Shown here: in pieces, positions 218 through 508 of the stretch
Numbering within the stretch: the first letter of the stretch is position 1
How the letters are laid out: each line of letters begins with the position of its first letter
Assembly: GCA_001830645.1 (NCBI GenBank)
Contig: MIBM01000318.1
Span: 1-5,157, forward strand
Source: Spirochaetes bacterium RIFOXYC1_FULL_54_7
GTDB taxonomy: Bacteria; Spirochaetota; Spirochaetia; Treponematales; UBA12059
Direction of reading: 5' to 3'
DNA: 5,157 nucleotides
The notes under the pieces: generated by a model
What the model saw: only the letters and a program-made list of their open reading frames with translations
The model's database searches: none
Told to the model about the DNA's origin: nothing
Made by a program: the position numbers and the translations under genes

Positions 218-222
218 GTATG

Positions 223-228
223 CCCCCT
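223..228 (-). promoter_or_regulatory. Ribosome binding site of ilvB
   Basis: AGGGGG lies 5 nt upstream of the GTG at 217-215. It supports this non-ATG start, because the reading frame is closed by TGA at 232-230 immediately upstream. Confidence 0.75.
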
Positions 229-282
229 GTCACTTTCTGGTCTGCACATCAATCCATGTGATCTGCTTTTTAGCCAGGAGAT

Positions 283-317
283 AAAAAAAGGGCCTGTCGC
301 CGGAAGGCGACAGGCCC
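283..317 (-). terminator. Rho-independent terminator / attenuator hairpin ahead of ilvB
   Basis: On the minus strand, GGGCCTGTCGCC (317-306) pairs perfectly over 12 bp with GGCGACAGGCCC (301-290) across a TTCC loop. A run of seven T (289-283) follows directly. It is therefore a textbook intrinsic terminator for leftward transcription. It lies 22 nt after the leader peptide stop and 65 nt before ilvB, inside the ilvB transcript and not at the end of a gene, which makes it an attenuator. It would also stop any read-through arriving from the kinase gene upstream. The plus strand has no T-run on the other side of the stem, so it acts in one direction only. Confidence 0.95.
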
Positions 318-339
318 GGATGTTACTCCTGGGTTAGCC

Positions 340-438
340 CTATCCACTTCTCCGGCGGCTGCCTTGGGGAATAAGTACTAGTACGAGTACAAGGGAGAGT
401 AGGGATACAGAAAGACTGCTCGCCGCTGACTGGTACAT
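340..438 (-). CDS. Branched-chain amino acid leader peptide (32 aa) controlling ilvB
   Basis: This is a short cis-acting leader peptide whose translation senses charged Leu, Val and Ile tRNA; the peptide itself needs no function. ATG 438-436 is followed by 32 sense codons and TAG at 342-340. Residues 13-23 read LLSLVLVLVLI, so 10 of 11 are branched-chain; overall there are 7 Leu, 4 Val and 1 Ile in 32 residues. All four Val codons are GTA. The Leu codons are CTT (3), CTA (2) and CTC (2), with no CTG, the common Leu codon in the neighbouring genes. GGAG at 451-448 lies 9 nt before the ATG, and a second AGGA (445-442) is closer. The predicted promoter is just upstream and the terminator is 22 nt downstream. 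It is functionally equivalent to enterobacterial IvbL/IlvL but not recognisably similar in sequence outside the control codons. A chance frame with such composition in exactly this place is unlikely. Confidence 0.9.
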   Translation of the reverse strand: MYQSAASSLSVSLLSLVLVLVLIPQGSRRRSG

Positions 439-479
439 TGTTCCTAGCTCCGTTACTGGTGTGTATAAGGTCTGTAGAA

Positions 480-508
480 ACAATAAAGGACTTGTGGATT
501 GTGGTCAA
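480..508 (-). promoter_or_regulatory. Predicted sigma70-type promoter for the ilvB leader transcript
   Basis: The -35 box TTGACC (508-503) matches 5 of 6 consensus bases. A spacer of exactly 17 nt (502-486) follows, then a -10 box TATTGT (485-480) matching 4 of 6. Transcription would start at about 473-475, some 35 nt before the leader peptide ATG. The -35 box begins 9 nt after the kinase stop codon (520-518). A weaker alternative -10, TATACA around 466-461, lacks a well-placed -35. Confidence 0.7.

Follow-up and report, generated by a model that had tools for sequence, protein, structure and literature searches.

The enteric trp, his, ilvGMEDA and ilvB attenuators combine a leader peptide containing regulatory codons with mutually exclusive antiterminator and terminator structures, the terminator being followed by a T tract, and in the trp attenuator of E. 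coli the antiterminator arm starts just past the stop codon of the leader. Candidate ilvB leaders have also been described for Actinobacteria including Streptomyces (PMC1262725), and the same source cites that the recoding of a similar ilvB leader in Streptomyces coelicolor remained without effect. For the ilvB-II motif of Corynebacterium, PMC10272879 describes a lacZ fusion that was highly active in minimal medium and showed low activity in rich medium. The Leptospira ilvB motif (WRC-14-1) is listed as a weak riboswitch candidate in PMC8632094 and was reread in PMC10272879 as an upstream frame, for which attenuation was proposed. According to the description in PMC10272879, all seven representatives of this motif contain at least three consecutive Val codons, and an upstream frame rich in branched-chain amino acids is also proposed there for the ilvB-OMG motif with its 41 representatives from various phyla.

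The window, i.e. the whole stretch of DNA analysed here, comprises bases 1-5157 of the 5664-base contig C318, which belongs to a draft genome with 444 contigs, a total size of 3.43 Mb and a completeness of 72.6%. All features of the leader region are located on the minus strand. The first 72 codons of ilvB, predicted to encode the large subunit of acetolactate synthase, extend from a GTG start at 217 to position 2, where the gene is truncated by the contig end. Its N-terminus matches PF02776 (E=2.6e-22), and the best NCBIfam model for the 72 residues is the biosynthetic acetolactate synthase large subunit, with a score under the full-length cut-off. A Shine-Dalgarno-like AGGGGG precedes the gene at 228-223. 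Further upstream, a promoter-like site at 508-480 (TTGACC at 508-503, a 17-nt spacer and TATTGT at 485-480) agrees with the consensus in 9 of 12 positions, which by itself is weak evidence with six such sites in the window compared to 2.9 +- 1.6 expected. The consensus scan found no promoter-like site between 283 and 217, only the one upstream of the terminator, and transcription presumably starts near 473. Shine-Dalgarno-like motifs at 451-448 (GGAG, 9 nt ahead of the start codon) and 445-442 (AGGA) are followed by a leader frame of 32 codons at 438-340 (MYQSAASSLSVSLLSLVLVLVLIPQGSRRRSG), running from ATG at 438 to TAG at 342-340 and containing the codon run LLSLVLVLVLI at 402-370, in which 10 of 11 codons specify Leu, Val or Ile. 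The predicted intrinsic terminator at 317-283 consists of a 12-bp stem (317-290) with 10 G-C pairs and seven T (289-283). The minus-strand sequence agrees with the preliminary description, which had placed promoter, Shine-Dalgarno sequence, leader frame, hairpin with T tract and ilvB in this order. Frames of about 32 codons are easily overlooked by gene callers.

Neither the run nor the terminator is readily obtained by chance. Among 5000 dinucleotide shuffles of positions 218-508, which served as the null model, none had a frame with 10 Leu, Val or Ile among 12 codons (the highest value being 9), a single one contained a stem of at least 10 pairs with a T tract, and none contained run and terminator together. 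Elsewhere in the window the best Leu/Val/Ile run amounts to 7 of 12 codons. Terminator-like sites are not enriched as a class (4 in the window vs. 4.3 expected), the one at 317-283 being the only long one. Furthermore, none of the seven Leu codons of the leader is CTG or TTG, compared to 66% in five coding stretches of the window (P=6e-4), and all four Val codons are GTA, compared to 29% in the same stretches (P=0.007), a codon-bias test that covers the window only. Avoiding common Leu codons would sharpen the response of an attenuator. The leaders of twelve relatives were counted without background, and some of them use CTG or GTG.

The preliminary description lacked an antiterminator, which we add here as a prediction. 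It would be formed by GATAGG at 344-339 (segment 2), which overlaps the stop codon of the leader, and CCTGTC at 314-309 (segment 3), which is also part of the 5' arm of the terminator. Since 314-309 is needed by both structures, terminator and antiterminator would be mutually exclusive. For each stall codon we folded the RNA regarded as free, beginning 15 nt past the first A-site nucleotide and extending to the terminator loop. Stalls at codon indices 7-26 (counted from 0), which span the whole run, all gave the same GATAGG/CCUGUC stem with a small inner hairpin, and from index 27 on this stem was absent; with the ribosome stalled inside the run (index 12-22), the predicted folding energy of the whole free segment is about -24 to -16 kcal/mol. 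From the end of the run to the hairpin there are 52 nt, composed of 30 nt to the stop and a gap of 22 nt. Because the run ends about 24 nt ahead of the antiterminator arm, the arm would remain accessible during a stall, whereas a ribosome at the stop codon would cover it. In a single-locus shuffle test of the arm pairing the window was no better than its shuffles (p=0.68); p<0.05 was reached by 7 of 26 loci, with a Fisher combination over these 26 related loci of 1e-5. Folds also contained a possible protector pairing between TATCC at 407-403 and GGATA at 345-341 and a possible outer stem between CCAGGAG at 332-326 and CTCCTGG at 280-274, which would enclose the hairpin and the U tract.

Judged by sequence, the locus possesses the classical elements of an attenuator, namely a leader frame with a regulatory run, a predicted terminator, a predicted antiterminator and a pathway gene downstream. 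We consider it highly probable that the region acts as a ribosome-mediated transcription attenuator of ilvB responding to charged Leu-, Val- and Ile-tRNA. In the proposed mechanism transcription would begin near 473 and the leader would be translated. With ample branched-chain amino acids the ribosome would reach the stop codon inside the arm and cover the arm, so that the terminator at 317-283 would form. If charged Leu-, Val- or Ile-tRNA were scarce, the ribosome would stall within 402-370 and leave the arm free; segments 2 and 3 would then pair ahead of the synthesis of the terminator's 3' arm, allowing RNA polymerase to continue into ilvB and probably ilvN. The co-transcription of ilvN is considered probable because of the gene order in L032, the nearest named relative (79%), where ilvN directly follows ilvB and is recognised by ACT_AHAS_ss, ALS_ss_C and the NCBIfam small subunit model above its cut-off. 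For the window itself the control of ilvN can only be deduced, since the DNA past ilvB lies off the contig.

The predicted layout resembles the enteric attenuators in the regulatory codons of its leader, in its mutually exclusive antiterminator and terminator and in its T-tract terminator. It differs in that the predicted arm contains the leader stop codon, whereas the arm of E. coli trp begins after it, and an enteric-style protector hairpin is not supported across the relatives of the window. The candidate ilvB leaders of Corynebacterium, Mycobacterium and Streptomyces share with the window the short frame with an Ile/Val/Leu run and the terminator; however, according to PMC1262725 their run overlaps the hairpin of the terminator, whereas that of the window ends 52 nt before it. 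As described in PMC10272879, the Corynebacterium ilvB-II motif likewise combines an Ile/Leu/Val-rich upstream frame with terminator and antiterminator before ilvB, but it belongs to another phylum, its frame usually comprises 15-17 codons compared to 32 in the window, and its antiterminator involves, as drawn there, the lower terminator stem and the P1 loop instead of the leader stop region. The Leptospira ilvB motif is similar to the window with respect to the phylum, the position before ilvB and the short branched-chain-rich frame, and it differs in being described from Leptospira only, in being also threonine-rich and in the location of its frame about 70 nt upstream of ilvB (PMC10272879); this comparison is one of descriptions and does not imply homology.

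It had been suggested in the preliminary description that such a leader would be notable if the host were a spirochaete. The host phylum is supported by binning and by the kinship of ilvB, but the surprise is lessened, since a valine-rich upstream frame before the Leptospira ilvB has already been proposed (PMC10272879), and the phylum therefore constitutes no novelty. Literature searches on spirochaetes and Leptospira yielded, besides PMC8632094 and PMC10272879, only a Corynebacterium paper (PMC6892785), though subscription journals may hold an earlier prediction. Attenuation ahead of this spirochaete ilvB is a well-supported prediction, and the leader-attenuator layout recurs upstream of ilvB in Spirochaetia, so that it extends further than the one Leptospira motif proposed previously.

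This recurrence was examined in ilvB upstream regions of several genome sets. A set of 58 relatives, 41 of them with an ilvB match, contributed 30 loci, and a genome collection contributed 80. In the class, at least 308 of 394 genomes had a match, and 29 new loci as well as 60 further places hand-picked among the matches listed were included. In the phylum, at least 230 of 296 genomes had a match, and 39 loci outside the class, among the matches listed, were used. The detector accepted frames of 12-70 codons with at least six Leu, Val or Ile in eight codons and a stop 5-60 nt before a hairpin with T run, within 400 nt; nine regions were shorter than 400 nt. In 200 regions (L001-L200) it found 35 matches on the forward and two on the reverse strand, the latter two representing one of the apparent duplicate pairs recognised by peptide and coordinates (L032=L114, L033=L115, L034=L128, L036=L130, L040=L139).

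Among the 29 class loci nearest to the ilvB of the window (L112-L140, among the matches listed) the detector accepted 18, or 17 after removal of L125. The calls for L125 and L142 were rejected as spurious due to gaps of 59 and 58 nt and weak hairpins. Including L127 and L128, which were recognised by eye, leader and terminator are present in 19 of these 29 loci. L127 and L128 are relatives of L126 in which the hairpin is kept and the run is diluted to 4 of 8 codons at best. The detector found no leader in the remaining ten loci, six from family f30 and four from f40, three other f40 loci having one. Farther away, the layout was detected in 3 of 60 class loci (L148 and L192 by the detector, L183 by eye among L141-L200) and in 2 of 39 loci outside the class, both from the same phylum (L234 of f60 and L245 of f69, by the detector). 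Comparable short runs with longer gaps to the hairpin were seen in L226 and L230. Among the 29 relatives' loci L003-L031, Ile runs occur in three loci of family f4 (L008, L013 and L016), whose leaders carry the run IIIISSIII and another terminator arm, GGCCGTTCTTCC, with GGAAGAA ahead of the stop codon as its match. The leader of L183 (G100:C32), too long for the detector, contains 18-nt tandem repeats encoding TALAVV about five times, as if its regulatory run had grown by repeat expansion.

The preliminary description had proposed to check whether related ilvB upstream regions keep a Leu/Val/Ile-rich frame followed by a terminator. The outcome was positive in that the run, a gap of 19-25 nt and the arm recur. 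The pattern that would speak against attenuation, a hairpin kept where the run is lost, is not the rule: L127 and L128 retain the hairpin next to a diluted run, and by the detector neither feature is present in ten of the 29 nearest loci. Codon run, gap and antiterminator arm recur among the relatives while the nucleotide sequence changes, which supports the earlier reading as ribosome-mediated attenuation.

In 13 loci labelled Chloroflexi or Dormibacterota (L051-L053, L062, L063, L066, L071, L075, L076, L079, L080, L082, L095) ilvB is likewise preceded by short Leu-rich frames such as LLGLLGLIGFGRTGARAN, some of them with terminators of the GAGCCCCCGC type. The detector passes 6 of these 13, and such leaders are therefore not confined to spirochaetes.

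The matching of the arms was assessed by a swap test, in which the duplex energy of each leader-stop region was calculated with each terminator arm and own pairs were compared to permuted ones. The 26 loci were reduced to 20 by taking one each from near-identical sets. Own arms pair at a mean of -11.5 kcal/mol compared to -9.7 +- 0.44 kcal/mol for permuted pairs (p=5e-5), where the arms were marked by hand, the region was picked after the pairing had been seen and the loci are related by descent. Alternative choices of the stop region gave p=2.5e-4 and 5e-5, omission of the Ile type gave 2.5e-4, and control regions further upstream in the leader gave p=0.18 and 0.82. Without the five strongest loci the test weakens to p=0.012, and two foreign terminator arms pair better with the stop region of the window than its own arm does. 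Arms that are changed yet matched include GGAAGAA/TTCTTCC in L008, L013 and L016 and CAGCGGC/GCC-T-GCTG in L120 and L123. In 25 of 26 loci the leader stop and the hairpin are separated by 19-25 nt, the exception being L192 with 35 nt. The protector hairpin predicted in the window was unsupported across the 20 loci (swap tests p=0.11, 0.11 and 0.45). For the outer stem at 332-326/280-274, which was noticed only after looking, the test over 20 loci gave p=0.016 (control 0.23). A stem enclosing hairpin and U tract also occurs in some relatives (L114, L115, L126, L008); it could form only after read-through.

From ten genomes both a window-like and a second ilvB were included (G118, G123, G079, G116, G167, G244, G131, G102, G179 and G272). 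The leader layout precedes none of the ten second genes, which indicates that the base composition of the genomes is not the cause of the runs. It precedes the window-like gene in seven of the same genomes (six by the detector, G116 by eye), the three without it belonging to f30 (two) and f40 (one).

Several other explanations were considered. The hairpin might do no more than terminate transcription of the upstream kinase gene or act as a constitutive brake, with a Leu/Val run that arose by accident. The reading frame of the kinase, also on the minus strand, ends at 518, so that its transcript would likewise run into the terminator. However, a comparable run was found in 0 of 5000 shuffles, and run, spacing and matched arms recur in the relatives, so that this explanation seems very unlikely. 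The frame might instead encode a functional small hydrophobic (membrane) protein, the hairpin ending its transcript and ilvB having its own promoter downstream. The hydrophobic run would be sufficient for part of a membrane helix and an intrinsic terminator lies behind it; yet the runs of the relatives consist mainly of Leu, Val or Ile with the rest of the peptide being variable, and the last leader codons match the terminator arm. Taking furthermore into account that the layout occurs before one type of ilvB and is absent before the second ilvB of ten genomes, and that the stretch from 283 to 217 lacks a promoter-like site, a small protein is highly improbable.

A control of the terminator by a riboswitch or a leader-RNA-binding protein, in which the frame plays no part, has a certain precedent, as ppGpp riboswitches are described for some bacterial ilvB genes and the Leptospira ilvB motif initially figured among the weak riboswitch candidates (PMC8632094, PMC10272879). 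Against it, Rfam searches including T-box and riboswitch families gave no match at the gathering threshold in the window and a single tRNA (in L119) in the window and 19 related loci taken together, and when 200-520 was searched by E-value, the only matches were to unrelated families and remained below threshold. In the six f30 relatives without leader no T-box reached the gathering score. Since it is codon content and arm pairing that recur instead of a conserved aptamer sequence, we regard such a control as extremely unlikely. There is just as slight a chance that a former attenuator persists as a relic in this genome. This might be suspected from the neighbouring kinase gene, which is split into three frames and carries a 37-bp duplication, from the truncation of ilvB by the contig end and from the fact that none of the 22 genomes of the own family has an ilvB closer than 56%. 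However, leader frame, run, stop, both arms, terminator and the start of ilvB are intact in the sequence, and the breaks in the neighbouring frames may be sequencing errors of the draft assembly.

The neighbourhood of the leader comprises, upstream of the promoter and on the minus strand, a PAS/HisKA_2 histidine kinase gene at 518-1976 in three frames (1107-1976, 720-1034 and 518-730), which holds a perfect 37-bp tandem duplication (780-816 and 817-853); its frame breaks reflect either a real pseudogene or an assembly error. A minus-strand frame at 2609-3463 (Peripla_BP_6) adjoins one at 3474-3800 without Pfam match, and 2609-3800 may represent one frame-broken gene for a solute-binding protein. 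The minus-strand frame at 3752-5155 contains a CehA/McbA-family metallohydrolase domain (NF038032, 95.2 bits, cut-off 80) and has few relatives in 27 other spirochaete genomes.

By binning and by the kinship of its ilvB the host appears to be a spirochaete. The nearest named records to the ilvB of the window are Spirochaetia MAGs, and among the matches listed its nearest relatives, with up to 79% over 72 residues, belong to families of the class other than the binned one. In the family to which the draft genome was binned, 14 of 22 genomes have an ilvB match, none above 56%. An attempt to place the contig in this family by means of two neighbour genes (28 genomes) revealed weak or no relatives. 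Of the 27 other genomes, 4 contain partial relatives of the first gene (up to 45%) and 7 contain relatives of the second (up to 28%). Because ilvB is closest to other families and the neighbour genes have few, weak relatives, the place of the contig in the draft genome is uncertain. The discrepancy between ilvB kinship and the binned family possibly results from horizontal transfer or from a binning error; in both cases the window would, judged by the kinship of ilvB, represent spirochaete sequence.

As a tentative and rather doubtful extension of the attenuation reading, the Spirochaetia may possess an attenuator design of their own, in which the last codons of the leader together with its stop form the antiterminator arm, the run can be retuned and the whole is tied to one ilvB. 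If this were true, a ribosome resting at the stop would mask the arm and no protector hairpin would be needed, the arm would dictate the tail of the peptide (GSG, RRRSG, EE) and the design would be tied to one of two ilvB genes per genome. The run would switch from Val/Leu to Ile between lineages and grow by tandem repeats (L183), the sensor thus being retuned through codon content alone, and a further step following read-through may be contributed by the second stem, which spans the U tract. The stop codon within the arm, the repeat-expanded run and the Ile-type runs appear worth a specialist's look. Irrespective of this extension, the second ilvB genes of the same genomes constitute an internal control for the recurrence of the layout, and the leaders with Leu/Val, Val and Ile runs, one of them repeat-expanded, would provide a natural series for asking how codon content sets the amino acid specificity.
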